From: Rhodamnia argentea
Lineage: Eukaryota; Streptophyta; Magnoliopsida; Myrtales; Myrtaceae
DNA length: 64,000 nucleotides
Direction of reading: 5' to 3'
Assembly (NCBI RefSeq): GCF_020921035.1
Contig: NC_063151.1
Coordinates: 21,582,934 to 21,646,933, forward strand
Below, piece by piece: positions 1-35,189 of this stretch; within the stretch, counting starts at the first letter, position 1; every line of letters begins with the position of its first letter. The position numbers and the translations under genes were made by a program. Under the pieces are notes generated by a model. It did not search any database. It saw only the letters and a program-made list of their open reading frames with translations, and was not told where the DNA came from.

Positions 1-252
1 TACCATTTGGAAGGAAAAAAAAGCAACGAGGGGAGGTAATACTAGTCGAAGTAATATCATGCGGACATTGTGATACAAACTCATATAATGAATAGTCGAA
101 ACAACTAGCTGTGTCAACCATGGTGCGAACCGATTATAGGATGAGAGAGTTAAATGAGCTATGTGCCTAATAGAAATCGTATATTATATATTTTTTTTAA
201 TAAATGCATTAGCAATAGTAAAAGAAAAAGGTGGAACCTTTACGTAAAATTA
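1..252. other. Duplicated flank, no gene
   Basis: AT-rich sequence that pairs with about 25050-25300. I see no gene. Its last nine bases are the left target-site duplication of the element that follows. Confidence 0.6.
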
Positions 253-1213: not shown

Positions 1214-1222
1214 GTAAAATTA

Positions 1223-1827: not shown

Positions 1828-1872
<45 letters not shown>

Positions 1873-3362: not shown

Positions 3363-6300
3363 ATGGAACTCGAGAATGATGACCGGGAACCCAGACGAAG
3401 AATGTCTTACGGCAGGACAAGCAGCAATGGTTCTTCATTGAGACGAGGCTCGTTGAGTTTGTCAAGTGTGTTCCCAAATCAGATGGATGATGACATTGAA
3501 AGTGAGAGGGTTTCAGAGGCTGGCGATATCGGGGATCGTGCTCTTAACAGTAAGAGGTACAGTGAAAGTGGCAGTTTGCGTTTATCTGCAGATCATTCTA
3601 TAGAGAATGGAATAGTTATTCGAACTCAAGAGGACACCCTGCTGCATCCTATTGGTTTTTGGTCTCGCGATCTGTCGACTTTGAATTCCATCTCCCCTGT
3701 ATCACCCTTGGTGGAAGAGATCATATCCCCTCTATCAACTGATGGAATCTTGAGGCCCATAGACGAAAAGAAGGTGAGTTCAAGAGCTTATCTATTTATA
3801 TTTCTGTTTATATCTCAACATCGACATATCTCATATGCCTTTACAGTAAAGTAGTGTTGCTCATCTCTGTATTTTTGCGCAGGATGAAGAGAAAGTGTTG
3901 CCTCGGTCATTGGAGTACATATCATGTCTTGTTCATCTTGCTGTTTTTGGGATTCTAGGGGTAATGTGCTGCTTCAACTTTGGAAATTTTGTATTAACCT
4001 TGAAAGAATGTTTTAACTTTCTAATCCTGGATCGATCCAAATGATATGAGTATTTCCATGTGATAAACGATGATACTTCCTGTGCTTCCATGTGCAAAAT
4101 CGATACTTTCTAGGAACAATTTGGGGAGATTTCTCATGTGTCACCTGCTAAAATTCTTGATATTGGAAGGAAGTATATCATTCAAGAGCACTGCCCAATA
4201 ACTGTCAAATGCGTTAGAAGTTCCATTGGCTTAGGGATAAATAAACATGGTATTTCCATCTAAATACAAAAAAGTCCAGTTCTAGCTGAGGAATTAGAGG
4301 ATCTAGTCCCCAACTCAGCCTTGAAAATGACTTGTCAAAAACTCGCTTCTAAGGGAAGTCACTAATAGTCTCATGTTTCTAGGTGAGCAACAAAAATCTT
4401 ATCCGCAAAAGCTCCTGATGCATTGTTCTGTTTGCTGGATTGAACTAAAGATAGTTTTACCAGACATCGCGAGTGTCTTCATCCCAAGATGTTTCCACTA
4501 GCTCTATGATAATGTGCTTTCAGGATTGAGAGTGCTTTGCATTGTCTTTAAGCCTGACCCTTTCCTTGACATGTCAGTCAACTATACACATCAGAGTTCA
4601 CGTCAGTACATTTGGTATCGGCTCTGTCCTTAATTTCGGAATGATACTTCTTTATCATCAAGAATCTTACTCGTACCCTGCACTAAATTACTGAATTGAT
4701 AGGTGATGACGTGATTAAAAAGATCATGTCTTATAGATTTAAGTTTGTGGCTACTCCTCTCTTTGGAATGACTAGGCTTTTTGCCTGCAGCGATCATCAT
4801 TGCAGCAAGTCTGCATACACCATTGAGGATCCGAAATTCAACTGACCTACATCTCGATCGAGAGAGAGAGAGAGAGAGAGAGGGAGGCCAGTGTGGATGC
4901 TTGCGTGAATTGTTAATTATCAGCAAAGATAACAAATTATGTCTTAGCAGTAGCATTTACGACTGAGTTTAGTAAGTTATCACCAAGCTAGTAGGGAAGA
5001 CTGTAAAAGACTGACTTTCTAAATAGCAGAATCAGAGTCGATTCTGAAAACATGTAGAGCCCATTATTTATTATTATTCATATCAGCATTTATTTATTAT
5101 TCATGATAGTCATTTGGTCCTTTTTGTTTCTGTTCGTCATGTCTGTTCTCTCAGGTATTGTTTGTTAAATACTGCTGTCTTGACTTGCAACTTTAAATTA
5201 TGCACAGAAGACAGAGACTTACATTTCATGAGTCGTGACTTACAGGTCTTAACGAGGTATTTACTTCAAAAGCTATTTGGGCCTGCAGTTGCTGGAGTGA
5301 CAAGTGATACAACTATATTATACCTTGATCTTCCTTCAAACATGGTCACATCTCTCTCTCTCTCTCTCTCTCTCTCAGTTGCCTGCCCACACAGATGAAC
5401 AGAAAACTGTATGCATATACTTCATGAATGCGATGAGATCATGCACATGGCATACAGAGTTTTTGTGACTAAGTTCGCATGTGATCTGAAACATGCTTAT
5501 TGGGACGTGTTCATGAGGTGTGTGCTAGGATAAGATGAGATTACTTGGATGACTTTGAATTAGTATTTCGGCAATATGTTGTAGCTATGTCATTGGAACC
5601 GAAATATACCCGAAAAATTGTCACTCGATTCGCATGGTGATTGATCGTTGATGTTGATTGTACCTATCTTTCCTTCGACTTGATACGTCATTTCAGGTTG
5701 GTTCTTTTCTGATGGGATGGATTGGTGTTGTTTTCAAGCGAGATATATCCGAAGTCTCTGATTTTCTAGCAATTGGATTGTCAACTGGTTATTTGGGTAG
5801 CCTTACAACTTTTAGTGGTTGGAATCAGAAGATGCTCGACCTTAGTGTGGATGGCAAGTGGCTGTTTTCAGTCCTCGGATATCTAATTGGTATGTACTCA
5901 TTGGAAGACTTCTATGTTAGTGTTATGCACGAAGCAAACATTTTCAGTTTAGTTGGATGGGCTTTGTCATGGTCGATCCTTGGTACCAAGAGAGGTGTTC
6001 TGATTCCGTCAACATGGAATGACTAGCCTTATTATCTATGATTTTTTTGCAGGATTGTTTCTTGCAGCCTATTCAATTGAATTCGGGGTGGATACAGCGA
6101 AGGGCTTCCGATGGTTAATGGAGAAGCACCGTGCAAATTCTAGCAACGACCTATCTGCAAAGAGCTGGAGAGTAAACAGCCGTAAGCATCACTTGTGTAT
6201 GATTCTGATGATGGCACTGTTGTTGGGGTCATTATGGGCTCTCAGTGCGATAATGCTGAAACGTGAGTTTGGAAATGGAGGCAGTGATGCTCAACTGTGG

Positions 6301-7049
6301 TTGGGTTGCGTCATCGGGCCAGTAGGTGTTTGGATCCGGTGGTTCCTAGCACGACTGAATGGGCGTGGGCTAGGAAAGACTGGTCTTTTGAAATGGGTTC
6401 CATTTGGGACTCTGATTGCCAATGTCTCTGCAGATTGTGTCATGGCAGCTCTCTCTACTACGAAGAAAGCAGTAAGTCCACAAACTAATTTCAAGTTGCT
6501 GAATATCTGGACTCACACATCTTAAAAGCCCCACCTGATTTGCTTGAATGTCATGTACACTGTTGAGCGAAATGGTACTTCCATATCTGTTCGTCTCATA
6601 TGAGATGAAGAAGTTAGACATTTGTTCGGATTACGAAGAAACGTACACTTTGGTGACCGTTCTTTAACGGTGCCGGTTTGTGTACATTGTAGAAACAAAA
6701 GTGATCTCTAATATCTTGGGAATCTGTTATTTGCATATTCTTTTGTTATATCCACGTTTAATGCGACAGTTATCAGCAGCACTAGTTATATCAATTTGTG
6801 TCCTGATCATCTAAAACTTTTTTTTTTAAGGTGAATACCAAGAATTGTGACACGGTTGTTACGGGCATCCAATTTGGACTTCTAGGCTGTCTGAGTACTG
6901 TGTCGACATTCATGGCCGAGTTCAATGCGATGAGACAAAGCAAGCACCCTTGGCGAGCTTATGCATACGCAATTGCTACAATAGCTGTCTCCTTCGGTTT
7001 GGGAATCCTGATATACAACCTCCCTGTTTGGATAAAAGGATATGAGTAA
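3363..7049 (+). CDS. FEX: Fluoride export protein, CrcB/FEX family (copy A, 6 exons)
   Basis: Exports fluoride across the plasma membrane and so protects the cytosol. This is the known role of plant and fungal FEX proteins, which fuse two CrcB/Fluc domains. Exons read 3363-3773, 3883-3960, 5246-5344, 5697-5889, 6053-6471 and 6831-7049, joined in frame to 472 residues. Donors are GT and acceptors AG. The exon 3 donor (ATG|GTCACA) is weak. The start follows an in-frame TAG at 3345. Exon 1 encodes a hydrophilic Ser/Arg-rich N-terminus of about 135 residues. Domain 1 has SNMVGSFLMGW and STGYLGSLTTFSGW, the Gly/Thr-Thr-Phe-Ser signature. Domain 2 has PFGTLIANVS and LGCLSTVSTF. Multiple hydrophobic segments fit a membrane protein. 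The introns contain (GA)n at 4858 and (CT)n at 5350. It is intact, as is its paralogue at 27544, from which it differs at scattered residues. Confidence 0.95.
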
Positions 7050-8719
7050 GCATGTCGAGATGGCCTCCTCCTACTTTACTTCGGACAACGCTTGAGGTAC
7101 TTGAGCGGAGACCAGACCTGTGCATAGACAAGACGAGAGAACTCTGCCGAGTTACACCACCTAAGAGTTTTTTCATGGTGCTTTGAGGCAAGCTCCATTA
7201 TACGGAAGCATGCATTTTACCCACCATGGTCAAGTTTCGACCCTGCATATGTTTCAGCAGATAGCAAATTACAACTTACACGAAACCGTGGAGTTGTACT
7301 TCTCACTTGTAATATGTATTGGAAGACCTTTGCCTATGTTCCTTGAGAAGTAAGTCCTCGTAACAACATCCGAAAGAAAAAGCTTAATGTTGACGTAATG
7401 TTCGAACTTTTTTTCTTTAACCTTTGGCTTATGTTTCCTAAAGCGCCTTTGAATCTTGTTGCCATTCAAAACCCTCCCGTCGGCGTCAACAAATCGAACT
7501 AGAAAGCGAAAGACATTCCTCTCTTAACTGCTACATGTGTAAGCTCCTCGTCTTTGAAAACCTGAGGAATCTATCGATCTGGTTGGAACTCAAGATGATA
7601 CTACCATTTGACGCAATGACAAGCTCGAGTCTTAGCAAATTTGGTCCCTAAGTCTTTCCGGTAGCTATGCTATGCCGTATCGTCGGAGCGCATTGACCTT
7701 TGCATATATGCATTTGAAGATTGAAGCACATAATGGGTCAGAATACTTTCTGGGTCCAGCTGCTTGCAAGGACTGTTTTTTTTTTATTTTTTTATTTTGT
7801 GGTCAGATTGCAAGGACTGTTTAGGAGGGGTGAAATAGAACAGAGTCTTCATGCCTAAAAGTAGCAAGGAATAAGCAGAAATGGAAGAAGAGTTTTGAGT
7901 GAGTTATGGTTCAGGGGACATCCTGGCATGTTAAGCGTCCATCTCAGAGATCATGCTTGGCAGGATGCAAGATGGGCGATTGGTGACCTACAAGTCCCAC
8001 CTTTTGATTTTCCATTAATCTGTCTGATCCACAGGCTTTCATGGCCCAACCATTTACAAATCCAATCACATACACCAGACGCGTCAAGTAACCTTTCCAA
8101 ATCGAGCAACTAAGCCATGGAAGGCTAACGAGATAACGGCTGTTTACTTGCCGAACTTAGCGACCGAGAGCTCGAGATATCGTCGCGAGAGAAGCCGGGC
8201 GCAAGCGAAAACGGCAAACTTTTCTTATTTGATTACTTAACTGCAGCTGCGCGGGCACTCTCGAACAAGATAACATCGAAACAGATACTAGCTTGGCTGT
8301 GATGCATTTATGGCTTGGAGGATTAACAGTCTCCATCTGGCAATGGCCCTTGGATCTTTATTCACATGAGATTTTGGATAAAGATCTTCCCCTTATCTTT
8401 GCCTCTGAAGAATGTCTACTCTCCATACGGCATTCTAATCTGCATCGTCTTCATCGGATAAGTAAGCGAGGTTCGAGTGCTTTTAACTCACCGCGGGAAC
8501 CCGCATCGGCGTCTCTCTCTTCTAGGGCCGAGTGTACCAAAACTCGAGTATTTCAGCATGGAAATTTAACGGATCGTATGAATACAAGACCCCCACAAGC
8601 TCTGCAAAAAGCCACCAGCTAAGTTTGCATGTCAATGATATCCATAACTTGTGGCCTGCCTATCTAAACATTTGATGGGAGAAGTTTCCTGTAAAAAAAA
8701 AAAAAAATACAATCCTACT
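7050..8719 (+). other. FEX copy A 3' region, no recognised gene
   Basis: This stretch is conserved with 31242-34034 in copy B apart from insertions there. The first few hundred bases are probably 3' UTR. Short ORFs at 7895-8113 and 8293-8622 exist in both copies, but their frames and lengths are not kept and I recognise no domain. A T-rich run at 7777-7799 corresponds to a much longer poly-T in copy B. Confidence 0.5.
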
Positions 8720-9870
8720 GAGGTTCCGTTTATTTTATGGAAAATAACTTTCAGGAAATTTTTCTTTTGAATTTTCTGGCCTTTGGTTTATGGCAAATAA
8801 ACTAGTCAAAGAAAAAATTTCCCGCTAATGAAAGAAACATCTCTAAAAATTGAGGAAGTAATTTCCTATTTTTGAAAAGAGTAAATCAATTTTCCTCCTT
8901 TTTTTTCCGTATACTCTTTCACCTTCCTTTTTTGTAATTATTTTGTAATTTCTCTTTTTAATTTTCTAACCTTTTAATAATCTTTTTTTCTTTTTCTTTT
9001 TTTCTCCTGCCAATCACCAACCACGGCGACTGGCCACAAGCGAGAGATGAGCTCGCCTGTGGCAGCGAGCTCAAGCCTTGCCAGCCTCACTTGATGGGAA
9101 CGTGGTCGATCGTTTTTTCTTCTCAAACTCGATCCTAATTCTCAACTCCAACTTCGCAAATCGAGTCATTTTTCGAGCTCAGAAACTTGATTCACTGTGG
9201 TCTGTTCATGGCAATGGCAATTGCGACTCGATTCACGTTCGTCAAACTCTGCCACCATCTCTACTCTCTATTCTCCTCTGCAGCAAACTCCAGCGAAACG
9301 TCCCTTAGGATCTCCCCAGATATGAAGCCTATCGGGGTAATTGAGATGCTTGCGAGGATGCACCGGGAGCTCGATTCCTCGCCCTTCGTGTTCGATTTGT
9401 TGATCGAGTGTTGCTTGGAAGAGAAGAAGGTCGATGCCACTCTGGAAATCTTGAGGTTGTTGAGGCCGCCCTTCGTGAAATCACTTGGTTTTGCTCGGGG
9501 CTGGCAAGGCTCAAAGCTCATCCTTTGCTTGTGGCCGATCATCAGCTGTCGCCGTGATGGGCGATAGGTAGAGGAAGAAAGAAAAAAAAAAAATGAAAAG
9601 TTCAACAACTTTTGAATTTTTTTTTTGAAAATTACAAAAATTGTCTACGTTAGCATTGGCCGTACCACACGCAGGACGGCTAGGTCCATGTGCGCCATTT
9701 TCAACCAAACGAGGACGTAGAAAAATCAAATGAGATTTCTCTTACCAAACGACGGATAATATTTTTCAGTTTATTTGCAAGTCTTAGCCGAACACCAGAA
9801 AATATCGTCATTTTCCTAGAAAATGACATTCAGAAGAATGTTTTCAAAAATATCAAACAAATGGAGCCTG
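8720..9870. mobile_element. Pack-type transposon carrying a PPR gene fragment (copy A)
   Basis: The ends AGGTTCCGTTT and AAACAAATGGAGCCT are imperfect inverted repeats. The inverted homology runs about 350 bp inward on each side: the CACGGCGACTGGCCACAAGC region near 9022 is mirrored near 9530-9560. Between the arms lies non-transposon sequence with a PPR-like reading frame. The same element is at 34035-35186, so insertion preceded the segmental duplication. No clear target-site duplication or transposase is visible. Confidence 0.75.
9187..9567 (+). pseudogene. Captured PPR-protein fragment inside transposon
   Basis: An open frame of 126 codons contains FVFDLLIECCLEEKKVDATL. This is the helix pattern seen before and within the first repeats of plant organellar PPR RNA-binding proteins (VFDxLIxxCLExKKVDxALE). 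Only one or two repeats are present, and the frame runs into the right inverted-repeat arm, where its last residues are not PPR-like. A complete PPR protein has many 35-residue repeats and a targeting peptide, so this is a captured internal piece. The copy B counterpart at 34669-34860 is shorter and more decayed. It could be transcribed as a chimera, but a working protein is unlikely. Confidence 0.65.
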
Positions 9871-10072
9871 GATGTATGCGTGTACATTGACTGTTCCGGA
9901 TTGTAAAATCACCCATGCTAAAGAATGATGATAATTCATAAAATTAGGGTTCTCTAGATCTTAGTCAACTTTAGGGTCACGTTGGGTCGGCTTTGTCGTT
10001 CTAGGGTTTATCTATTTAATTTTTTTTGGCGCAGTTATTTTGGATTCCAATCTGTAAAATTCTTGGCACTTA
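9871..10072. other. PKS copy A upstream region
   Basis: Promoter-proximal sequence shared with copy B, including TAGGGTT-type motifs. About 130 bp present in copy B (35289-35425) is missing here. Confidence 0.5.
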
Positions 10073-10555
10073 GGGTGGGTTTGGTTCAGCATTTTCAAGG
10101 GGCTTTCAGCCCCCAAAGCCTATTGGGAGAATACTGAAATATTTGGTTCAGCTTTAAGCCAACATCTGACCAAATGCTAGCCTTGAGAAAGCTGAAAGTC
10201 CAATGCTGGTAGCTTTCCCAATACTGGTAAGGACCAGCATTGAACTTTCAGCATTTGACCAAATGCTAAGAGATTTTTTTCTTCCAAAAATAACCTCATC
10301 AATTTCTTATATTTTCAATTTTGCCCCCTTTTTTTTACTGTTTATCTTCTTCGCCGGTTTGGCAAGGGGGTAATTTTTTAATTAAAATTGCATTCAAAGC
10401 TCCTTTGGGATGTTGTTTTTATCAAAGCCCATTCAACCCAAAACCCATTTTCAAATGAGATTTTACCAAATGCAATTAGCATTTTCCTAAACTCCTAGAT
10501 TGATGGCATTTGCATTTCTCCAAAACTCATTTCAAATGTTGAACCAAACTCACCC
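10073..10555. mobile_element. Tourist-like MITE in PKS-A promoter
   Basis: The inverted termini GGGTGGGTTTGGTTCAGC and GTTGAACCAAACTCACCC are flanked by TTA on both sides (10070-10072, 10556-10558), the target of PIF/Harbinger elements. Copy B has a single uninterrupted TTA at the matching place (near 35553). The element is 483 bp, has no coding capacity, and lies roughly 80-560 bp upstream of the PKS-A TATA box. Confidence 0.9.
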
Positions 10556-10633
10556 TTAATATCTAAGTCAAACTTACCTTTCTTGAGTCAGCAGTTGGTT
10601 GATTGTCACCTTACATTGAACACCGAATTCGCC

Positions 10634-10640
10634 TATAAAA
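10634..10640 (+). promoter_or_regulatory. TATA box of PKS copy A
   Basis: TATAAAA lies 100 bp upstream of the remnant start codon and is conserved in copy B (35631). Confidence 0.6.
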
Positions 10641-10733
10641 CGTGCCACGTTTCTTCACTTCCCAATCCTTCTCTTAAAGCATTGCTTTCTTGGGCACAAA
10701 ATCTTCTCATTGCCGCAGTGTTGAGAAAGAAAA

Positions 10734-12224
10734 ATGGTAAGTTCGTATGGAAAAATTTAGGAGGCACTGAAGAAACCTCAAGGTCTGGCGACGATACCGG
10801 CAATCGGCACAGCCAATCGTCCCAACATCATCTACCGGGCCAATTATCCGGATTACTATTTCTGAGTCACCAACAGCGAGCACATGGCCCTTTGGAAAGA
10901 TAAGTTCGAGCATATATGTAAGTACCAAATGAAAATCATGACTGATGCCACATTTATTAAGAACGACCGAGAAAAGGATCATAATTTCCTCTTAACTCCA
11001 TATAAGTATGTAAAGAAATTTACAATATAAATCGCTTTTCACGAAGTATTGGGGATGAGATTTACATGGTGTGTTATAAGCTGTCGGGTAATTGAGAGTG
11101 GGTTTGGTTCAACATTCTCAAGGGGATTTCAGCCTCCAAAGCCCATTGGGAGAATGCTGAAGCATTTAGCTCATCTTTAAACCAGCATTTGATCAAATGT
11201 TGGCATTGGGAAAGCTGAAAACCCAATGCTGGTAGGGACCAGCATTGGACTTTCAATATTTGGCCCAATGCTAAGAGATTTTTTTTCTTTCCAAACCCAA
11301 TGCTAGGATTATGGCGTCCCGTCCCTGAATGCCCGCCAAGACATATTGGTCCCCAGCGTTTTGGAGCTCGGCGCTGAGGCCGCGGTGAAGGCGATCGAAG
11401 AATGGGGCCAACCGCAATCGAAGATCACGCATGTGATATTCAATTCGACCTCCGGATGGCACATGCCCGGCGCAGATTTTTCTTTGGTAAAGTTGCTTGG
11501 TCTCGAGCCGTCCGTGAAGAGGATCATGATGTACCAGCAAGGATGTTATGTGGGCGGCACCATCCTGCCCATGGCCAAGGACAAAGCCGAGAACAATCCT
11601 GGGTCGAGAGTCCTCGTGGTGTGCTCCGAGATCACCCTCGGCTCGTTCAATGGCCCTTCTGAGGCCGACCCAGAATTTCTTGTGAGCCAGGCGTTCATCG
11701 GGGATGGAGCGGCGGCCCTGATCATTGGCGCCGACCCGGACGCATTGATCAAGCGGCCCTTGTTCCAAGTAATATCGTCCCCCGAGACAATCATCCCTGG
11801 GTAAGAGGGCGTGATCGAGGGTCCTCTGCGGAAGATGGGCCTCACGATCAGCCTCTCACGGAGTGTCGCGGTATTGGTGTCCGGCAACATGGAGGAGCAC
11901 CTGAAGGAAGCGCTTCGCCCTCTGGGGATCACCAACAATTGGAACTCATTGTTTTGGGTAGTTCACACCGGCGGGAGGGCGACCTTCGACAAGATTGAGA
12001 CGAAGCTCAGGCTCAACGCCGACAGGCTCGGGACGATGCGGCACGTGTTGAGCGGGTTCAGGAACATGGCAAGCTCGTCCGTCCTCTTCGTTCTTGATGA
12101 GGTGAGGAAGAGACTGACGGAGAAAGGCGAAGGAAGAGAGTGGGGAGTTCTCTTTGCGTACGAAGCTGGTCTTACGTTGGACTTCGTTGTGCTTCGTAGC
12201 GTGATCACAGATCCCGCCCTTTAA
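10734..12224 (+). pseudogene. Type III polyketide synthase (CHS-like), broken copy A
   Basis: Paralogue of the intact gene at 35735. The exon 1 remnant (10734-10917) has TAG at the ninth codon and TGA near its end. The intron donor GTAAGT remains at 10918. The acceptor and the first ~85 bases of exon 2 are gone, replaced by a MITE piece (11094-11308). Exon 2 resumes at about 11309 ([10 protein letters not shown]). It then stays open to a TAA at 11802-11804, where copy B has a Ser codon, and continues past the stop to 12224. The catalytic Cys ([11 protein letters not shown]), His (WVVHTGG) and Asn (RNMASSS) positions remain visible, so the gene decayed recently. Long antisense ORFs across it are shadows. 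Confidence 0.95.
11094..11308. mobile_element. Partial Tourist-like MITE in PKS-A intron/exon 2
   Basis: It begins GAGAGTGGGTTTGGTTCAAC and follows the first ~210 bp of the 10073-10555 element, up to the CTAAGAGATTTTTTT tract. The right half and right terminus are missing. A duplicated bit of internal sequence (CCAAACCCAATGCTAGG) abuts the PKS exon. It replaces roughly 270 bp that copy B still has (about 36090-36342). Confidence 0.85.
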
Positions 12225-13359
12225 TTCCATTACTCGTTCAAGTGGATTGATTCTGCTAGTGCAAGTAAATAAATGCCGGTCTGGAATAATTTGATTAAAT
12301 AAGAGAATCGATCCTGGATTTTATTTTTTTCAAGGGTGGATCATTTTGGAGAAGAGTCGATATCGAATGGACTTATTTTCATTTGGCAATATCCATTAAG
12401 CTAATCATATAGCAAGTTCGACAACTATTTTTTTTTTCCTCGTTGCTCAACATAATGTATTTTTTCCTTTCTCAACATAATGTCCGAACTTCAGAAAATT
12501 AGTTCCGTATAGTTTTTTTTTTTTTTTTCATAAAATGGCATGAAACATCAAGTATTTTGATTGCCGTGAAGTGTCACCTTAGTAATGACCAGGCACAACT
12601 AGCCATGTGGATTGCCTCCTAATCTCTATCACCATCTTATTATTTTTCTCCATCTCCGATCATCATAACAAAGTCGTCGGTGCCGTCGAAGACCCGCCTC
12701 GTCGCTCTCTCTCTCTCTCTGTACGCGCGCAATCAACTGTTTGAGACAATGCTTCAAGAGGTTGCACGATCATGATTCAAGGCAACACGACCATAATTCA
12801 AGTCTCATAACCTCAAAGTGAAAGTCCGACCATAGAAAATCCGAACGCAACATAAGGTCCGAGAACTACGCTTGAAAAATAGAAACTGGTTTTAGGAGTG
12901 ACTGCACAATGATGAAAGGTTTCAAAAGGAGAACATGTGGTATTATCAAAATTTGCATCGGTGATGCCACAAGTATTCTCCCCGGCATTTCCCCTTAAGG
13001 TCTACATTTCCCATCTAGAGACAGTAATTAATAATTTTATCTCGAAAAAGACGAGCTGATCAGAATATTTAATAAATGTGCATGGTGCTTATGTCATAAG
13101 AGGATTCATCCTCGAGTCAATGAATATAGTTGTGTTAGAAACAAGGAAGAAATTGTGAGACTCGTCTCTTTTTAATTAAAAGAAAACCCTAAAAGAGATT
13201 ATTTCTAGAGGCCTAAAAACCCATGATGAAGAAGAAGCCCATCTTCTAACTTTGACCATAGTCCTAGGGCCCACACTCAGCATTTCACCCCAACAATAAG
13301 ACGCCAATGGGCTATACTGATAAGGCCCAATAATCAAATCCCTTAATGTAAATTACTTG
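12225..13359. other. PKS-A downstream region, no gene
   Basis: 3' UTR-like and intergenic sequence shared with copy B (37253-39000). It has poly-T tracts and a short (CT)n at about 12707. No gene is seen. Confidence 0.5.
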
Positions 13360-14740
13360 GGCTCTGTTTGACAGTAATTCTGCTCCCAAAAAATGATTCT
13401 GATCAAATCACTTTTTTTGATTCTGTTCCCCGAATGATTTTTTGAGAATCAAAACGCGTTTGATAACTGTTTAAAATTTTTGTTCTTAGAACGTAAATGC
13501 GTTTGGTAGTTTCACAAAATTTCCGTTCCCAATTTGTCATTTAAATCAAATAATTATATAATCACATTTGATAACAAAGAATAGGGAAAATAATCAAATA
13601 GTGATTATGGAGCAAAAAAAAAAAAAAGAAGAAGAAAAAGCAACAAAATTTTCATTCCCAATTCGTTTGTCGATTTGTCATGAGTATGCAATCATTTATA
13701 TTGTTTGAAAAGTAATTCGTATTACATTTACAAAATTTGTCTAAATCATTTGTTTGTTATTATTTCTTGTGACTTTTAGATTGATTACCAAAAAAAAAAA
13801 AAAAAACTCCTCATTGTGCAACCGCCTATAGTTTTGCATTCTTGTAATTACACATCGTACAAGCTTACGGGACCTGCAACTCAACTACATTGATTTTTTT
13901 TTTCACCCGACTCAACAAATTTTTTGTGCGGCTCGAAAAATAGAGAAAAAATGGAGATTTAGTTCGCGACGCGGAGGGTTGGGTCCAGTCTTTAATAAAA
14001 AAAAAGATAAAAGTTGAAAAAACATAATAGGAAATAAAAAAAATGCAAACTTAATTAGAATAAAAAATAAAATAGCTAAAAATTCGAAAAAAAAACATGC
14101 GTATTAGAGGTCGTTTAATATAAAAAAAATAAATTAGATTTAAAAATTTTCTAAAAACTAATTTTATTAAATATAAATATAAATATAAATTGAATGTAAA
14201 AATAGGCTTAAAATTTTACAAAAAAAAAAAGGGGAGGGGAAGAATCTGGTGACGAGAAATTTTTTTCAAAATTTTAGCTTTTTTCAATCTTAATTTTTTT
14301 ATTTTTAAATTATTAAATTAAAAATCTAAATATTTTTTATTTCCCCCATTTCATAAATTTTTAAATTTTTTTATTGAATTTACCATAAATAAAATTTTTA
14401 ATTTAGGAAAATTAGTTTTTCCAATTTTTAAAATTGAATTTTAATTTATGTAAAGTTAAAAATCCACGTGGACTATTTTTTTTTTAAATAATACCATTTT
14501 ATATTAAAATTTTAATTATAAGTATGAGGGATAAATCATAAATATATCGTGCAAAAAGGTGATTCCCAAAAGTGTTCCAAAACACCGTAATCATCTTTTT
14601 TTTGCTTCTGAAAAGTGGTCCAAAAGTGTTCCCGAGATCGGAATTAAAATCATTTTTTTTTCATTACCAAACATGTTTCTGATCCTTTTTTTGTTTCCGG
14701 GAACGGAAATAGAGGATCAGAATTATTGCCAAACAGTGCC
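13360..14740. mobile_element. Non-autonomous DNA transposon (copy A only)
   Basis: Its termini GGCTCTGTTTGACAGTAATT and AATTATTGCCAAACAGTGCC are inverted repeats. Copy B has the uninterrupted site ACTACTTGGTGACG near 38990. TTG (or CTTGG, depending on where the boundary is drawn) is repeated on both sides, which fits a PIF/Harbinger-like 3-bp target but is not decisive. The interior is 1.4 kb of very AT-rich DNA and has no transposase. A second insertion may be hidden inside, since the terminal-like sequence is confined to about 330 bp on the left and 190 bp on the right. Confidence 0.75.
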
Positions 14741-15425
14741 TTGGTGACCCTCTCGGTCGGCGTATGGTCAACCCATTTTAGGACCAATTTTTCCAAAGCA
14801 GATTAACAGGAGATTGGGGAACCATCTGTGGGGTTAGGCCATAACCTAATCAAGACTGGAATCGCGCTCCGTAACTAAAATAAAATGAATTACTTATTTA
14901 ATAGGAAAAAAGTCACCGGAAATTTCAAGCTTTGCCTACCCACTACAATATGTTTACCCTAAGCTTTTCTCTATGATACTAAAAAAGTCAAACTTATCCT
15001 TGTGTGACACATTTACCCTACGTTAAAATTCCTTCAATGGATGCTGTTAAAAATCTGCCTCCATAGACAGCAGAAGGCGAACGATATTGACATGGCGCCC
15101 TCGTGGCGTGAGTCAAATAAAAACCTCGGTTCGGTTGGAAATCATCCGATGGAACCTTAACGAAGGGTAAATATACAAGTTTAGAATTTTGGATGTCATT
15201 AGAAAATAGTTTAAGGCAAACGTGTCACAGTGGACGTAATTTTAGATTTCTGATAACAAGAAAAATAGTTCGAGGATAAATTCATCACAATGAACATATT
15301 TTACAATTTTGGCGGCATTTTCCCCCATTTGTTATGGTAAGACTCCATTTTCGGTCAACCATTTGTTTTTTTTTTTCTGGGTCTCGACACTGTTGGTGAC
15401 ACAATACATGGCCTATATAGCAGTC
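14741..15425. other. Distal end of duplication copy A, no gene
   Basis: Matches about 38992-39751 in copy B. No gene is seen. Homology is lost just after GCAGTC at 15420-15425. Confidence 0.6.
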
Positions 15426-16020
15426 GAGAAATACGGAAGCGGTGGTAACAATGATGTTACACGTGGAACCTAGCGAAATGGGGGCCCTTCACGCGCATTA
15501 TATAAATTGGTGCGGCGGAGGACGGCGGTGTCAGAGGAACTACAGAGAAGAAGGTTCATCCAGATAGAGAGAGAAAGAGAGCGGTATTTCCGATTCCGAG
15601 ATTTGCGTGCGATTAGATATTCAAATTTAGGGCTTGGCCCACACGAAAAGAGGCGGGTTGTTAACAAGCTTTGCTTACATGAATATAATTCTTCTGTCTT
15701 CCTAAATATGAATGAAAGCCAAGGCTGTGGATGCTACCCGGCCCAATTGAACTCGACTCGAAGCAGCCTAAAAGAAGGCACAAAGATAGATCAAAATAAC
15801 ATAAGCCCAGCAATCCATAGAGCAGTCTCATGAAACCAAATTTTTCGCAGAACGCGTGTGGACTCAGAATTCGTTTCATGTCACGTTGTTTTGCTTATAT
15901 AATGCAGTTATTGGGCTCGTTGGGCCCAAATACGTTGTCCAAGCGCTAAGGGTGAGCATGGTCCGGATTGGTCCGGTTACTTTCGGGACCGGGGCCCGAA
16001 CATCGGACAAACTGGTCCAT
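15426..16020 (+). other. Unique sequence; possible promoter and leader
   Basis: ATTATATAAATTGG at about 15498 looks like a TATA box, followed by a purine-rich leader-like stretch. A 108-codon frame (15507-15833) matches no family I know and is low complexity at its start. At about 15949-16010, GGGTGAGCATGGTCCGG resembles the end of the hAT-like element at 49892. Confidence 0.35.
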
Positions 16021-16151
16021 AAGGACTTTTCAATTGGATTATGGCATCCATGGTGACCCCACGCTCCATCTCATCCTTCAGGACTCTGCTAGTGTAACAA
16101 TAAATATCGAGATCTCATCGACTCGGAAAAACTTGGTGGTTAAAGAAGAAT
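16021..16151 (+). pseudogene. Ubiquitin-like piece 1
   Basis: Reads RTFQLDYGIHGDPTLHLIL, then SVTINIEISSTRKNLVVKEE. The first part aligns with ubiquitin residues 54-71 (RTLADYNIQKESTLHLVL) and the second with the N-terminal beta hairpin of the next unit (MQIFVKTLTGKTITLEVE). The piece therefore spans a head-to-tail junction of two ubiquitin folds. The C-terminal RLRGG needed for conjugation is absent; QDSAS stands in its place. Confidence 0.65.
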
Positions 16152-16386
16152 GTAAGTGAAATGCTAACTCAACTAAAGGAGGTTCGAGTCATTTATGCTC
16201 CTCGTGACGCAAATTAGTGTCTTGATTGGATCGCCAAGGCCCATATATTCGGGTCTCCCTCCCGACTAGCTGTCGAAGCCCACTCAATCCCTTTGGGATT
16301 TATTATGTTTTCATGCTAGTAGTGCTACTTTTTCTAGAGCCGAAAGTTAACGAAAGTTTGATCTTTTTGACCCCCCAATAAAACAG

Positions 16387-16513
16387 GTGAGGCTTATGTA
16401 TTACAGCATCCATGGTGACCCCACGCTCCATCTCATCCTTCCGAACTCTTCTAGTGTGACAATACATGTCGAGATCTCATCGACTCGGAAAAACTTGTTA
16501 GTTAAAGAAGACC
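16387..16513 (+). pseudogene. Ubiquitin-like piece 2
   Basis: Reads VRLMYYSIHGDPTLHLILPN, then SVTIHVEISSTRKNLLVKED, open throughout and ending at GTAAGTG. It has the same head-to-tail junction structure as piece 1. The middle third of the fold is missing. It opens the first 572-bp unit. Confidence 0.6.
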
Positions 16514-16756
16514 GTAAGTGAAATGCTAACGCCACCAAAGGAGGTTCAAGTCACTTATGATGCTCCTCGTGAAGCAAATCAGTGTGTTGATTGGATTGCC
16601 AAGGCGCATGTATTCGGGTCTCCTTCCCGACCGGCTATTGAAGCCCACTCAATCCCTTTGGGATTTATTATGTTTTGATGCTAGTAGTGCTACTTTTTCT
16701 AGGGCCGAAAGTTAACGAAAGTTCGATTTTTTTGACACCCAAAAAAAAAAAAAAAA
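16514..16756 (+). mobile_element. LINE-type RNase H 3' end with poly-A
   Basis: One frame reads EANQCVDWIAKAHVFGSPSR followed by a short 3' tail and A18. It matches the C-terminal RNase H domain (RVT_3 type, REANRxADWIAK) found at the end of plant LINE polyproteins. The copy is 5'-truncated, and the arginine of the motif is mutated. Confidence 0.65.
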
Positions 16757-16958
16757 GGTGAGGCTTATGCTCCTCGTGAAGCAAATTAGTGTGCTGATTG
16801 GATCGCCAAGGCCCATATATTCGGGTCTCCCCCCCGACTAGCTATCGAAGCCCACTCAATCCCTTTGGGATTTATTATGTTTTGATGCTAGTAGTGCTAC
16901 TTTTTCTAGAGCCAAAAGTTAACAAAAGTTTGATCTTTTTGACCCCCCAATAAAACAG
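16757..16958 (+). mobile_element. LINE RNase H 3' end, second tandem copy without ubiquitin piece
   Basis: It begins directly at GGTGAGGCTTATG and enters the LINE module at GCTCCTCGTGAAGC, so the ubiquitin-like piece and the first LINE bases are absent. A TAG interrupts the EAN motif. It ends CCCCCCAATAAAACAG with no long poly-A. Confidence 0.6.
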
Positions 16959-17085
16959 GTGAGGCCTCCGGATTACGACATCCACGATGACCCCACGCTC
17001 TATCTCATCCTTCAGGACTCTTCTAGTGTGATAATACATGTCGAGATCTCATCGACTCGGAAAAACTTGTTGGTTAAAGAAGACC
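16959..17085 (+). pseudogene. Ubiquitin-like piece 3
   Basis: Reads VRPPDYDIHDDPTLYLILQD, then SVIIHVEISSTRKNLLVKED, open to GTAAGTG. It opens the second 572-bp unit. DYDI and TLxLIL are at the ubiquitin positions DYNI and TLHLVL. Confidence 0.6.
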
Positions 17086-17530
17086 GTAAGTGAAATGCTA
17101 ACCCCACCAAAGGAGGTTCAAGTCACTTATGATGCTCCTCGTGAAGCAAATTAGTGTGTTGATTGGATCGCCAAGGCGCATATATTCGGGTCTCCTTCCC
17201 GACCGGTTATTGAAGCCCACTCAATCCCTTTGGGATTTATTATGTTTTGATGCTAGTAGTGCTACTTTTTCTAGGGCTGAAAGTTAACGAAAGTTCGATT
17301 TTTTTGACACCCAAAAAAAAAAAAAAGGTGAGGCTTATGCTCCTCGTGAAGCAAATTAGTGTGCTGATTGGATCGCCAAGGCCCATATATTCGGGTCTCC
17401 CTCCCGACCGGCTATTGAAGCCCACTCAATCCCTTTGGGATTTATTATGTTTTGATGCTAGTAATGCTACTTTTTCTAGAGCCGAAAGTTAATGAAAATT
17501 TGATCTTTTTGGCCCAAAAAAAAAAAAAAG
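17086..17530 (+). mobile_element. Two LINE RNase H 3' ends of the second 572-bp unit
   Basis: The first copy (17086-17326) ends in A14. The second (17328-17530) again lacks its 5' part and ends in A14. Arrangement and lengths repeat those of 16514-16958. Both carry a TAG in the EAN motif. Confidence 0.6.
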
Positions 17531-17804
17531 ATGAGGCTTCTGGATACCATCCAAAATTTTAAATTGATGATTCAAGCCAAGGAAGAGATACGATCGGGTG
17601 AGTTCGCTCTGGCATCCATATTGGTTTGGTTTCCTTAGGGATCGGGGATCGAAGATCGGACCAATCGGTCCGTAAGGACCTTTCCATTGGATTATGGCAT
17701 CCACGGTGACCCCACGCTCCATCTCATCCTTTAGGACTCTGCTAGTGTGACAACAAATGTCAAGATCTCATCGACTCGGAAAAACTTGATGGTTAAAGAA
17801 GACC
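17531..17804 (+). pseudogene. Ubiquitin-like middle piece plus C-to-N piece 4
   Basis: 17531-17610 reads MRLLDTIQNFKLMIQAKEEI, aligning with ubiquitin residues 20-36 (SDTIDNVKAKIQDKEGI). After about 65 bp of unrelated sequence, 17675-17804 reads RTFPLDYGIHGDPTLHLIL, a stop, then an N-terminal hairpin ending at GTAAGT. Together they retain most segments of one fold, in the right order. Confidence 0.65.
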
Positions 17805-18040
17805 GTAAGTGAAATGCTAACCCAACAAAAGGAGGTTCAAGTCATTTATGCTCGTCGTGAAGCGAATCGGCGTGCTGATTGGATCGCCAAGTCCCATATA
17901 TTCGGGTCTCCCTCTTCACTAGCTATCGAAGCCCACTCAATCCCTTTGGGATTTATTATGTTTTGATCCTAGTAGTGCTACTTTTTCTAGTGGTGAAAGT
18001 TAACAAAAGTATCATCTTTTTGACCCCAAAAAAAGAAAAG
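17805..18040 (+). mobile_element. Best-preserved LINE RNase H end
   Basis: The frame EVQVIYARREANRRADWIAK is uninterrupted and continues to IPLGFIMF before a stop. It shows the canonical REANRxAD motif that is mutated in the other copies of the array. An A-rich run precedes GGTGAGG. Confidence 0.7.
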
Positions 18041-18205
18041 GTGAGGCTTCTATATGACGTCCAAAATTTTAAATTGATGATTCAAGCCAAGGAAGAGATA
18101 CAGCCGGACGAGTTCGCCCTGGCATTCGGGGGAAACGTGCTCGCCAAGGACGGGGACCCTCGCCCTCGCTCAACTTGCCGTCGGGGCCAGTTGGCGAACG
18201 TTTAA
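18041..18205 (+). pseudogene. Ubiquitin-like terminal piece
   Basis: Reads VRLLYDVQNFKLMIQAKEEI, then QPDEFALAFGGNVLAKDGD. It aligns through ubiquitin residues 20-53 (IPPDQQRLIFAGKQLEDG), including the PD and F-x-G positions. It then leaves homology (PRPRSTCRRGQLANV) and stops at 18203-18205. This is the longest continuous ubiquitin-like stretch in the array. Confidence 0.7.
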
Positions 18206-25049: not shown

Positions 25050-25309
25050 TTACCATGTGGAAGGGAAAAAAAGCAATGAGAAGAGGTAATGCTAGCTAAA
25101 GTAATATCATGCGGATGTTGTGATACAAACTTATATAATGAATGGTCGAAACAACTACCCGTGTCAACCACGATGCAAACGGATTATATGATGAGAGAAT
25201 TAAATGAACTATGTGCCTAATAGAAATCGTATATTATACAGTTTTTTTTATAAATGCATTAGCAATAGTAAAAGAAAAAGGGGGAACCCTTACGTAAAAT
25301 TATGTCTCG

Positions 25310-25989
25310 TCGTTGCGGCCACTTTGTAAAGTCAAAGACGAGATTTGGAGAAACTATTACGTGAGTTTAGTAGTCCACGTAAGCAAATTTCCACTCCATT
25401 CATTGATTGCCATCTGTCCGAATTGGGCCCACCTTTCAGACTTTTTTTGTCCCCTCGCCTCTCTCATTCCCGCTCGGTTACCCTCCCTCTCTCCTCCTCC
25501 CCCGTTCCCTCACAATTTATATCGTCGCTGGCACGTCGAAGGAGCGGCCATTGTTGCACCTGGGGAGAGCTCCTGCAATCAGCTTCGTCTGATTAAAATG
25601 GTGGCGTAAGATATTTCGGCCGCATCCTGGAAGACAAGCAGTTCGCCGGAGCTCCATCGCGAAGGACTGCTTCTCATCGCGATTCTCGACCAATTTTGGC
25701 TCTCCGATTCTTCGTTCATCGTGATCTCGACGAGCGTGAGAAGCTTCTTATTGACATACACACGCTCTCTCTCTCTCTCTCGCGAGGAGTCTTCGCTCTC
25801 CGTCGTTGGTTCTTCATTTTCAAAATTTCCTTTCGGTCAAAAAGCTCGAAGAGGACGACGGCGCCGCGTGAGTTGCGTGCGGGAAAAGGTGGCGGTTCTT
25901 CGCTGGGGCTGGGTTCGCAATTTCTGTGCTAGGGTTTGAACCGGAATCGGATTGGCCTTTCTAGGAAAGTCATTTGTTACGTCCGGTAC

Positions 25990-26039
<50 letters not shown>

Positions 26040-27543
26040 GATATATTTTCTAATAGGAAAAGAACACTAAAAGTTACGGACTCCTTGTTCGTCTGAAAGA
26101 TTCTCTCGCTTTCTAAGGAAATCGATGCAGCGTCATCACTGAACAGTCTTGAATCGCTTCAATAAGAACCTCATTGAAGATTGCGTTTGAATATGTGAAA
26201 CGAAGTTGCTTGTCAAAGTTTTGGAACTTTTGGGATTCTGTAGATGTCCATTCTCAATTGCACTCCAATGTCGGCAATCATCAAACATAAACAAAATGGC
26301 ATCGGGAATGCTCAGTCTATCATCGTGGGACACGGTTTTGTTAACATCTTGTGAAGATGTCAATTCGCGGATCTTGATGCCAGTTGGAAGCGACACAGCT
26401 TCGATCCGACGATTTGATTGCCCAAAATTACTCCTCATCTGGCGTGCGCCAAATTTGTTTCGTCTCGTATATCTCACCTTTCAAGTCATTGGAGAAAAGG
26501 GCATTAACGGTGTACTTGAATCGAATTAAAATAAGAGCAAACTGTCCAACTCGACACCTTACCAGCTAGAGTTGGTCAGAGATTGCTGATTGTATAAGCT
26601 TATCCAGAGATCTACTCAATTCTAAGTGTCGTCAACGAAGTTCGTTGTTTTAATGGGATGTCGATGGAACTGTTAATGGCAACTTTGGTGAAGAGAAGAG
26701 TGATTGGAGCATCGGGAGAATAGTTTAATCTGCTGAGCTGATTATTAGAATCACCATCTTTGAGTTATTATAGTCGAGCACGTTACTTAGCTTGTGCCTG
26801 GGATTGTGATCGGTCGTCCTCCTGCCATATCTAAACACGTGAGGAGTTTATATGGCAGGAATCGTGTGGGCGCTGTGGGACCAAGCTTGTGACACGAAGG
26901 ACTTTATATCTGCATATGTGGTGAGAAAACAGCCAGGATGAGCTCACAGATTGCGCGCCAGTCTCTTTTTAGATGGGAAACTTCACTTTTGTTCATTAAA
27001 TTGTTTGTTCATGTTAAATATGGGCTATATTGAGTGCCTCATGCTTTCCACTTCATATATGTGGTGTTGAGTTACCTTCTCCATCATTTCTCATGTAGGT
27101 AACTATTCATTTTCTGTATTTGACATGACATCCTTAATTTTAGTGATGTATCACACTGTGATTGTGCATTTCATTTAGAACTATTTCAATGATTATTGTC
27201 AATGTGGTGGGATCCGGGGAGGCGATCCATCAGTCTGATATGTTTGTAAAGTGACCTCTACTAGCAAATCTCTCCCTCCCTAATCTCTGTAATGGTTTGG
27301 TTGCCATTTTTTCCTTTCGAAATGTCCCCTTTTTTTGTATGTCTAGCTACCTTTTATTTGGGTTATGTAAAGGTGGAGCTGTTGAATAATCTTTAGTTTA
27401 GAAAAGTAGATGCAGGCATTACGTGAGTGGCCCTATGATGTCCATTTCTTGTGAAATCTCTGGAAGTCCCGTTAAATATTTGTCCTGCCGATTCTGCAGC
27501 CATTGAAAATTTTTTTGATAGTCCATAGCTCAGCTGGTGGGGC
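25310..27543 (+). promoter_or_regulatory. FEX copy B upstream region and probable 5' leader
   Basis: This region is shared with copy A from CACAATTTATATCG (25511) onward, but 25335-25510 is unrelated to the matching part of copy A. It has a (CT)n microsatellite at about 25992-26030, followed by ATATATATAG that copy A lacks. Confidence 0.5.
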
Positions 27544-29037
27544 ATGGAACTCAAGAATGATGACCGGGAACGCAGACGAAGCATGTCTCACGGCAGGACA
27601 AGCAGCAATGGTTCTTCATTGAGACGAGGCTCGTTGAGTTTGTCAAGCGTGTTCCCAAATCAGATGGATGATGACATTGAAAGTGAGAGGGTTTCAGAGG
27701 CTGGCGATATCGGGGATCATGCTCTTAACAGTAAGAGGTACAGTGAAAGTGGCAGTTTGCGTTTCTCTGCAGATCATGCTATAGAGAATGGAATAGTTTT
27801 TCCAACTCAAGAGGACACCCTGCTGCATCCTATTGGTTTTTGGTCTCGGGATCTGTCGACTTTGAATTCCGTCTCCCCTGTATCACCCTTGGTGGAAGAG
27901 ATCATGGCCCCTCTATCAACTGATGGAATCTTGAGGCCCGTAGACGAGAAGAAGGTGAGTTCAAGAGCTTATCTATTTAAATTTCTGTTCATATCTCAAC
28001 ATCGACATCTCTCATATGCCTTTACAGTAAAGTAATGTTGCTCATCTCTGTATTTTTGTGCAGGATGAAGAGAAAGTGTTGCCTCAGTCATTGGAGTACA
28101 TATCATGTCTTGTTCATCTTGCCGTTTTTGGGATTCTGGGGGTAATGTGCTGCTTCAACTTTGGAAATTTTGTACTAACCTTGAAAGAATGTTTTAACTT
28201 TCTAATCCTGATTCGATCCAAATGATATGAGTATTTCCATGTGATAAACGATGATACTTCCTGTGCTTCCATGCACAAAATCGATACTTTCTAGGAACAA
28301 TTCAGGGAGATTTCTCACGTGTCACCTGCTAAAATTCTTGATGTAGGAAGGAAGTATATCATTCAAGAGCACTGCCCAATAACTGTCAAATGCGTTAGAA
28401 CTTCCATTGGCTTAGGTATAAATAAACATGGTATTTCCATCTAAATACAAAAAAGTCCAGTTCTAGCTTCGGAATTAGAGGATCTAGTCCCCAACTCATC
28501 CTTGAAAATGACTTGTCAAAAAGTCGCTTCTAAGGGAAGTCACTAATAGTCTAATGTTTCTAGGTGAGCAACAAAAATCTTATCTGCAAAAGCTCCTGAT
28601 GCATTGTTCTGTTTGCTGGATTGAACTAAAGATAGTTTTATTAGACATCGTGAGTGTCTTCATCCCAAGATTTCTCCACTAGCTCTATGATAATGTGCTT
28701 TCAGGATTGAGAGTGCTTCGCATTGTCTTTAAGCCTGTCCCTTTCCTTGACATGTCAGTCAACTATACACATCAGAGTTCACGTCAGTACATTTGGTATC
28801 GGCTCTGTCCTTTATTTCGGAATGATACTTCTTTATCATCAACAATCTTACTCGTACCCTGCACTAAATTACTGAATTGATAGGTGATGACGTGATTAAA
28901 AAGATCATGTCTTATAGATTTAAGTTTGTGGCTACTCTTCTCTTTGGAATGACTCGGCTTTTTGCCTGCAGCGATCATCATTACAGCAAGGCTGCATACA
29001 CCATTGAGGATCCGAAATTCAATTGACCTACGTCTTG

Positions 29038-29083
<46 letters not shown>

Positions 29084-31241
29084 GCCAGTGTGGATGCTTG
29101 CGTGAATTGTCAATTATCAGCAAAGAAAACAAATTATGTCGTAGCAGTAGCATTTACCACTGAGTTTGGTAAGTTATCACCAAGCTAGTAGGGAAGACTG
29201 TAAAAGACTGACTTTCTAAATAGCAGAATCAGAATCGATTCTGAAAACATGTAGAGCCCATTATTTATGATTATTCGTATCAGCATTTATTTATTATTCA
29301 TGAGAGTCATTTGGTCCTTTTTGTTTCTGTTCGTCATGTCTGTTCTCTCAGGTATTGTTTGTTAAATATTGCCGTCTTGACTTGCAACTTAAAATTATGC
29401 AAAGAAGACAGAGACTTACATTTCATGAGTTGTGACTTACAGGTCTTAACAAGGTATTTACTTCAAAAGCTATTTGGCCCTGCAGTTGCTGGAGTGACAA
29501 GTGATACAACTATATTATACCTTGATCTTCCTTCAAACATGGTCACATCTCTCTCTCTCTCTCTCTCTCTCTCAGTTGCCTGCCCACACAGATGAACAGA
29601 AAACTGTATGCATATACTTCATGAATGCGATGAGATCATGCACATGGCATACAGAGTTTTTGTGATTAAGTTCACATGTGATCAGAAACATGCTTATTGG
29701 GACGTGTTCATGAGGTGTGTGCTAGGATAAGATGAGATTACGACTTTGAATTAGTATTTTGGCAATATGTTGTAGCTATGTCAGTGGAACCGAAATATAC
29801 CCGAAAAATTGTCACTCGATTTCGCATGGTGATTGATCCTTGATGTTGATTGTACCTATCTTTCCTTCGACTTGATACTTCATTTCAGGTTGGTTCTTTT
29901 CTGATGGGGTGGATTGGTGTTGTTTTCAAGCAAGATATATCCGAAGTCTCTGATTTTCTAGCAATTGGATTGTCAACTGGTTATTTGGGTAGCCTTACAA
30001 CGTTTAGTGGTTGGGATCAGAAGATGCTTGACCTTAGTGTAGATGGCAAGTGGCTGTTTTCGGTCCTTGGATATCTAATTGGTATGTACTCATTGGAAGA
30101 TTTCCATGTCAGTGTTATGCACGAAGCAAACATTTTCAGTTTAGTTGCATCGGCTTTGTCATGGTCGATCATTCGTACCAAGAGAGGGGTTCTTATTCCG
30201 TGGACATGGAATGACTAGCCTTATTATCTATGATTTTTCGCAGGATTGTTTCTTGCTGCCTATTCAATTGAATTTGGGGTGGAGACAGCGAAGGGCTTCC
30301 GATGGTTAATGGAGAAGCACCCTGCAAATTCTAGCAACGACCTATCTGCAAAGAGCTGGAGAGCAAACAGCCGCAAGTGTCACTTGTCTATGATTCTGAT
30401 GATGGTACTGTCGTTGGGGTCATTATGGGCTCTTAGTGCGATAAAGCTGAAACGTGAGTTTGGAAATGGGGGCAGTGATGCTCAACTGTGGTTGGGTTGC
30501 GCCGTCGGGCCAGTAGGTGTTTGGATCCGGTGGTTCCTAGCACGACTGAATGGGCGTGGGCTAGGAAAGACTGGTCTTTTGAAATGGGTTCCATTTGGGA
30601 CTCTGATTGCCAATGTCTCTGCAGCTTGTGTCATGGCAGCTCTCTCTACTATGAAGAAAGCAGTAAGTGCACAAACTAATTTCAAGTTGCTGAATATCTG
30701 GACTCACACATCTTAAAAGCCCCACCAGATTTGCTTGAATGTCATGTACACTGTTGAGTGAAATGGTACTTCCATATCTGCGCGTCTCATATGAGATGAA
30801 GCAGTTAGACATTTGTTCAGATTACGAAGAAACGTACAGTTTGGAGACCGTACTTTAACTGGGCCGGTTCGTGTACATTGTAGAAACAAAAGTGATCTCT
30901 AATTTCTTGGGAATCTGTTTTTTGCTTAATCTTTTGTTGGATCCACTTTTAATGCGACAGTTATCAGCTGCACTAATTATATCAAATTTGTGTTCCGATC
31001 ATCTAAAATTCTTTTTTTGAAGGTGAATACCAAGACTTGTGACACGGTTGCTACGGGCATCCAATTTGGACTTCTAGGCTGTCTGAGTACTGTGTCGACG
31101 TTCATGGCCGAGTTCGACGCGATGAGACATAGCAAGCACCCTTGGCGAGCTTATGCATATGCGATTGCTACAATAGCCGTCTCCTTCGGCTTGGGAATCC
31201 TGATATACAATCTCCCTGTTTGGATAAAAGGATATGAGTAA
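27544..31241 (+). CDS. FEX: Fluoride export protein, CrcB/FEX family (copy B, 6 exons)
   Basis: Exons 27544-27954, 28064-28141, 29443-29541, 29889-30081, 30244-30662 and 31023-31241 join in frame to 472 residues, with the same exon sizes as copy A (411, 78, 99, 193, 419, 219). As known for the family, it should move fluoride out of the cell at the plasma membrane. It retains SNMVGSFLMGW, STGYLGSLTTFSGW, PFGTLIANVS and LGCLSTVSTF. Residues that differ from copy A include Asp for Asn after TTFSGW, Lys for Met in ALSAIKLKRE, Ala for Asp in NVSAAC and His for Gln in MRHSKHP. The (GA)n in intron 2 is longer here (29039-29081). Both copies keep open frames and splice sites, so both are probably expressed. 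Confidence 0.95.
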
Positions 31242-31970
31242 GCATGTCGAGATGGCCTCCTCCTGCTTTACTTCGGACAACGCTCGAGGAACTCGAGAGG
31301 AGACCAGACCTGTGCATAGACAAGACGAGAGAACTCCGCCGAGTTACGCCACCTAAGAGTTTTTTCATGGTGCTTTGAGGCAAGCTCCATTATACGCAAG
31401 CATCCATTTTACCCACCATGATCAAGTTTGGACCCTGCATATGTTTCAGCGGATGGCAAATTACAACTTACACGAAACCGAGGAGTTGTACTTCTCACTT
31501 GTGATATGTATTGGAAGACTTTTGCCTATGTTCCTTGAGAAGCTAGTCCTCCTAACAACATCCGAAAGAAAAAGCTCAATGTTGACGTGATGATCGAACT
31601 CCTTTTCTTTTAACCTTCTTCGGCATATGTTTCCCAAAGCCCCTTTGAATCTTGTTGCCATTCAAAAATCCCCCGTCGGCGTCAACAAATGGCACTAGAA
31701 AGCGACAGACATTCCTCCCCCAACTGCTTCATGTGCAAGCTCCTCATCTTCGAAAACCTGAGGAATCTATCGATCTGGTTAGAACTCAACATGATACTAC
31801 CATTTGACGCTATGACAAGCTCGAGTCTTAGCAAATTTAGTCCCTAAGTCTCCCTGGTAGCTATGCTATGCCATATCGTCGGAGCGCATTGACCTTTGCA
31901 TATGTGCATTTGAAGATTGAAGCATATAATGGGTCAGAATACTTTCTGGGTCCAGCTGCTTGCAATGACT

Positions 31971-32015
<45 letters not shown>

Positions 32016-32810: not shown

Positions 32811-32815
32811 CTCTC

Positions 32816-35186: not shown

Positions 35187-35189
<3 letters not shown>

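Follow-up and report, generated by a model that had tools for sequence, protein, structure and literature searches.

Polyubiquitin genes consist of tandem complete ubiquitin units that are fused head to tail, match the ubiquitin-family profile PF00240 and carry a diglycine at each unit end. For L1-like insertions in dicots, PMC4838847 describes a TTAAAA target. Proteins with several ubiquitin-like units (UBLs) are also found in Myrtaceae. With a composite of the UBL pieces described below as query, one protein was retrieved at E <= 0.01 (319 candidates), a 184-aa protein of Eucalyptus grandis named “polyubiquitin” (E 9.5e-20). A second search with this sequence added eight proteins of E. grandis, Corymbia and Syzygium (E <= 1e-5, 50 candidates); both searches reach only similar-length relatives that share exact short words, and the matches are from Myrtaceae only. 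The members include E. grandis EUGRSUZ_H03021, Corymbia BT93_H1397 and BT93_H1398, and Syzygium oleosum LOC115683547, and their sources name them polyubiquitin, uncharacterized or hypothetical and give no function. PF00240 matches four stretches in three of the nine relatives, three in two, two in two, one in one and none in one. Their UBLs are joined by a linker without diglycine (LILQDS and variants), and the unit ends that are present all lack the diglycine.

Here we compare with these systems an array at 15962-18190 of a 64,000-nucleotide stretch of the Rhodamnia argentea genome (the window; C2:21582934-21646933). Four A, six L and two B pieces make up the array, arranged as A1 L1 A2 L2 L3 A3 L4 L5 B1 x A4 L6 B2 (Table 1). 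Its UBL pieces align with residues 73 to about 156 of the Myrtaceae multi-UBL proteins. Those proteins are open frames, and seven of the nine have between two and four PF00240 stretches; the array, by contrast, repeats a fragment that covers two half-UBLs and is interrupted. Very probably it is a pseudogene fragment that derives from a four-UBL gene, is interrupted by a probable LINE and has been amplified locally, an ordinary pseudogene rather than a new kind of gene.

Table 1 Pieces of the array, with positions in the window
Piece	Description	Position	Strand	Evidence
A1	From the C-terminal strand of UBL1 into strands 1-2 of UBL2 (parent residues 75-111)	16034..16145	+	tblastn P0002 E 1.5e-12; blastn 16037-16145 vs L011:3910-4018, 85.3%
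L1	Insert copy, LINE-like and 5'-truncated; RNase H tail, short 3' and A-rich ends	16146..16386	+	L-copy alignment; missing in L011-L013
A2	Second A copy	16390..16507	+	tblastn E 1.7e-10; 89.5% identity vs A1 over 114 nt
L2	Insert copy	16508..16757	+	L-copy alignment; 97.5% vs L4; frame 16502-16675 without PF13456 match
L3	Insert copy without 5' part (duplication seam)	16765..16958	+	L-copy alignment; 96.0% vs L1
A3	Third A copy	16962..17079	+	tblastn E 4.4e-10; blastn vs L011:3910-4018, 84.4%
L4	Insert copy	17080..17327	+	L-copy alignment
L5	Insert copy without 5' part	17337..17530	+	L-copy alignment
B1	UBL2 from helix 1 onward, truncated	17531..17614	+	tblastn P0007 E 3.0e-6 alone; blastn 17527-17610 vs L011:4015-4097, 88.1%
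x	Non-UBL stretch preceding A4, copy of 15962-16035 preceding A1	17615..17688	+	blastn 15967-16404 vs 17620-18058, 87.2%
A4	Fourth A copy, in-frame TAG	17690..17798	+	blastn vs L011:3910-4018, 83.5%
L6	Insert copy, RNase H-like frame matching PF13456	17799..18040	+	17.4 bits, E 0.0043, cut-off 21.6; 86.0-88.9% vs other five L copies
B2	UBL2 from helix 1 to parent residue ~160, frameshift near end	18041..18189	+	blastn 18038-18189 vs L011:4015-4164, 82.2%; ORF PF00240 18.7 bits, below cut-off 25.4

Among 2168 six-frame peptides of the window (at least 20 aa), the six UBL pieces are the six best matches to a plant ubiquitin query, with E values that are individually weak (0.015 to 2.1). Single window frames score below the PF00240 cut-off of 25.4 bits. 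Concatenation of the pieces, which a preliminary description of this DNA had put forward as a check, gave 38.4 bits when they were joined in UBL order, 32.5 bits for a B1-A4-B2 composite and a sub-threshold 23.4 bits for an A1-B2 composite. With the Myrtaceae relatives as tblastn queries and no joining, the best E values were 1.5e-12 for A1, 1.7e-10 for A2, 4.4e-10 for A3 and 1.6e-10 for B2; B1-x-A4 fell into a single alignment (E 2.0e-12), and B1 by itself reached 3.0e-6. The weakness of single pieces against ubiquitin itself, and a stray PMI_typeI_C match in one A copy (E 0.0086, below cut-off), would suit a chance resemblance within wholly LINE-derived sequence. However, the best tblastn score in the array is 57.0 bits, against a maximum of 29.6 for 200 random sequences similar in composition and 23.1 for 24 other tiles of the window. 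Chance is refuted by parental loci in the same genome (L011-L013, see below), whose DNA is 82-86% identical over A and 81-88% over B, and its probability is practically nil.

In these tblastn alignments the A pieces correspond to parent residues 73-114 and B2 begins at 111, and thus the array repeats a single UBL1/UBL2 boundary. Comparison at the DNA level gives the same picture, with all four A pieces on one parent stretch and both B pieces on the adjoining one (blastn). The best tblastn alignments of B1-x-A4 laid B1 on UBL1, from residue 34; this assignment was rejected, as DNA comparison with the parents puts B1 on UBL2, directly after A. Parent parts outside residues 73 to about 160 have no convincing match in the window, either by tblastn (matches at E <= 1 listed) or by DNA comparison. 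The ubiquitin-like pieces noticed in the preliminary description are therefore present, but they are not aligned in order as in polyubiquitin, nor are they successive polyubiquitin-like units: both protein and DNA mapping trace all copies to the one boundary.

The array resembles polyubiquitin genes in its UBL repeats fused head to tail and in its match to PF00240. It differs in its diverged units and in that only one part of the parent, spanning a boundary, was copied in place of complete units. Diglycine is absent from every piece: the position of LRLRGG reads LILQDS in A1 and A3, LILPNS in A2 and LIL-stop-DS in A4. Its absence had been noted before and taken as a loss; the parents likewise lack it, which argues against a loss.

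Stretch x (15962-16035 and 17615-17688) adjoins A pieces and is rich in GGTCC/GGACC, and it is largely missing from one of the related loci (L009). A reading of x as UBL1 was discarded: it carries no UBL signal, and an equal score was obtained in 232 of 500 shuffles for the copy before A4 and 261 of 500 for that before A1. It is possibly a remnant of another mobile element. Within the window there are no Rfam matches at gathering score and no tRNA genes.

To find related loci, we searched the 346.7-Mb assembly (74 contigs) with a 151-base query that consisted of A3 and 42 flanking bases. At least nine matches were found: four in the window, two single copies elsewhere on C2 (L005/L010 and L006/L009) and three on C1. 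The C1 matches end at query base 120, the last base of AAAG (17079 in the window), and those on C2 continue to base 151. On C1, L011, L012 and L013 lie within about 45 kb, and each contains an uninterrupted UBL1-UBL4 frame of 303-309 codons that covers P0003 residues 21-321 and has four PF00240 stretches. An uninterrupted parental gene, the search for which the preliminary description had itself named as a test, thus exists in three versions. None of them has the diglycine, and LIVQDS stands at that place. Residues 1-20 or 1-17 of P0003 are matched upstream in L012 and L013, presumably as a first exon; upstream of L011, residues 1-20 gave no match at E 1e-3. Judged from their sequences, L011-L013 are candidate working genes, with the N-terminal match seen in L012 and L013 only. 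The parents differ from each other at 17 to 25 positions over 909 nt, not concentrated at third positions, and differences this few and so placed do not demonstrate constraint.

In L011, the A match occupies 3910-4018 and both B pieces begin at 4015; L012 and L013 behave likewise, so that the end of A and the start of B overlap by 4 nt in each parent (4018/4015, 4062/4059 and 4089/4086, respectively). The fragment runs on unbroken in all three parental loci, whereas in the window it is divided and AAAG stands at either edge of the break; the parents thus represent an empty site. The parental junction reads GGTC-AAAG-TGAAGCTTC, and the window junction reads GGTT-AAAG-AAGACC on the left and A-run-AAAG-GTGAGGCTTC on the right, where AAAG is followed by one additional base (A before B1, otherwise G). 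In L010, AGAA replaces AAAG on the left. The 4-nt AAAG overlap is a candidate target-site duplication. We also considered a longer duplicated target that reaches GTAAGTG and rejected it; the best gapless join, ..NLLVK|VRLLDTIQ.., agrees with the parents.

One could instead imagine a retrocopy chimera in which a UBL mRNA was joined to LINE RNA by template switching, with the LINE as the 3' end. A does pass directly into a LINE-like 3' end and an A-run, and L1-like retrocopies are reported in dicots in PMC4838847. However, B, which directly continues A in the parent, follows the A-run with the 4-nt overlap. After a template switch the gene would not be taken up again beyond the A-run, and this origin is most improbable.

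The RNase H-like insert that had been described between the UBL pieces is present in six copies, and A-runs of varying length end L2, L4, L5 and L6, with shorter and impure ones in L1 and L3. In one frame it reads KTVSEMLTQ..REAN..ADWIAK.. and matches PF13456 in its C-terminal columns, from column 92 to the end (121-123). The scores are 21.2 bits in L009, 20.3 in L010, 17.4 in L6 and 20.0 for the majority reading, all below the cut-off of 21.6, and the L2 frame gave no PF13456 match (two window frames tested). A protein search with the insert returned one candidate and no relative at E <= 1. Since the PF13456 scores stay below the curated cut-off and L2 has no match, the insert is only probably a LINE, 5'-truncated and of L1 type.

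With L1-type LINE insertions the insert shares the 3' A-tail and an empty site (in three of three parental loci); its putative RNase H-like C-terminus and the candidate duplication of AAAG are also reminiscent of them, and the TT/AAAG of the window resembles the TTAAAA target given in PMC4838847. It differs in an RNase H match below the curated score, in a very short target-site duplication and in a parental site that reads TC/AAAG. The missing match in L2 and the missing AAAG on the left of L010 lower our confidence in the explanation as an interrupted pseudogene fragment.

The same two observations raised the probability that we give to true spliceosomal introns in a poly-UBL gene, seeded by a LINE and then multiplied, with GTAAGTG as donor, as the preliminary description had suggested. 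GTAAGTG stands at all four A ends and B is preceded by AG. Five of the 16 GT/AG pairs scanned near the junctions are in frame, and one combination, from a weak GT (17809 / 17090) to the AG before 18046 / 17536, is so in both units. However, in neither complete unit does GTAAGTG itself keep the frame with AG|GTGAGG / AG|ATGAGG, and the one in-frame partner that the scan gave for it, an AG within the A-run, occurs in a single unit. Its bases read T-V-S within the RNase H match, where dropping that part reduces the PF13456 score from 17.6 to 15.0 bits, and A4 contains a stop. Because the parental frames are uninterrupted at the insert position in all three loci and an A-run stands before the would-be acceptor, introns remain very unlikely.

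As an interrupted fragment, the array can be placed in the history of its neighbourhood. The window contains a tandem duplication of ~25 kb, in which 1-15425 corresponds to 25051-39752 in pieces. Further parts of the duplicated neighbourhood are found upstream on this contig, in L009 and L010. Nothing in the right-hand copy within the window matches the array. L010, collinear with the window on both flanks, has one x-A-L-B unit with B shortened by deletions, and measures 630 bp versus 2334 bp in the window. In L009 there is a single A-L-B unit, and x is mostly missing. Of these three fragments only the window copy is expanded, and the single units in L009 and L010, together with the lack of a match in the right-hand copy, place the expansion most simply in the window copy. 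The layout, which had been thought to match no described family, is thus that of an interrupted exon fragment with later tandem duplication, and its unexpanded versions stand on the same contig.

Within the array, the closest L pairs are L1-L3 (96.0%) and L2-L4 (97.5%), and L6 is the outlier (86.0-88.9%). These relationships fit a 572-bp L-A-L duplication (93.7% identity). Short similarities occur at the seams, for example GGAT..CATCC between B and A, and may have driven the duplication events.

We then propose a model for the origin of the array. An internal piece of ~280 nt (parent residues about 74-167) from the long coding exon of a four-UBL gene would have been copied to this locus. A 5'-truncated LINE, consisting of the C-terminal RNase H tail, a short 3' end and an A-run, may then have inserted in UBL2 at AAAG, presumably by target-primed insertion, and left the short candidate target-site duplication. 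Tandem duplication of the ~25-kb neighbourhood would have yielded the fragments at L009, L010 and the window, and misaligned recombination or slippage at short similarities may have expanded the window copy to four A, six insert and two B pieces. The order of these events and the route of the fragment to the locus are our inference from the comparison of loci. The model retains one element of the preliminary description, decayed poly-UBL-like gene material that multiplied after one probable LINE insertion, which the parents, the empty site and the copy relationships bear out. The genome provides a clean worked example, with empty-site parents, two single-copy interrupted fragments and one expanded array, and their co-occurrence allows the insertion to be distinguished from the later local tandem duplication.

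Stops, indels and substitutions indicate decay. An in-frame TAG occurs in A4 and also in the A piece of L009, and B2 is frameshifted relative to the parents; A1-A3 have no stop within the UBL part. The 20 variable sites among the A copies are distributed 10/5/5 over codon positions 1/2/3, a small sample. DNA homology to open parental frames (81-88%, L011-L013), a disabled frame and a partial gene are what is expected of a pseudogene. Most likely no protein is made from the array and it has no function in the plant. It is tempting to speculate that the array is transcribed and yields small RNAs that adjust the multi-UBL family, as A and B are 81-88% identical to the three open frames, but we regard this as a long shot. 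A narrow literature search, limited to open-licence papers, returned nothing on the array, and the same kind of search returned nothing on EUGRSUZ_H03021.

The parent is the more useful lead, being a four-UBL, diglycine-free protein to which the sources assign no function, and its family is mildly interesting. The structure model of P0003 is poor (mean pLDDT 58.8, pTM 0.32). Its best PDB matches are linear tetra-ubiquitin, which suggests a ubiquitin-like fold family, and we draw nothing else from the model.

Other features of the window were also noted. The ~25-kb duplicated segment bears a chalcone/stilbene synthase-like gene, at 11307-12224 and 36152-37252. The right copy has a 366-codon stop-to-stop frame (PF00195, PF02797); the frame of the left copy is broken by a stop near 11802 and starts further in. 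Between this gene and the end of the duplication, 37643-38279 aligns to the reverse complement of itself at 79.6% across 641 columns and contains 31/60-bp sub-repeats. At 59218-63638, mutually similar direct and inverted segments surround a sugar-transporter fragment (PF00083) at 61572-62057.
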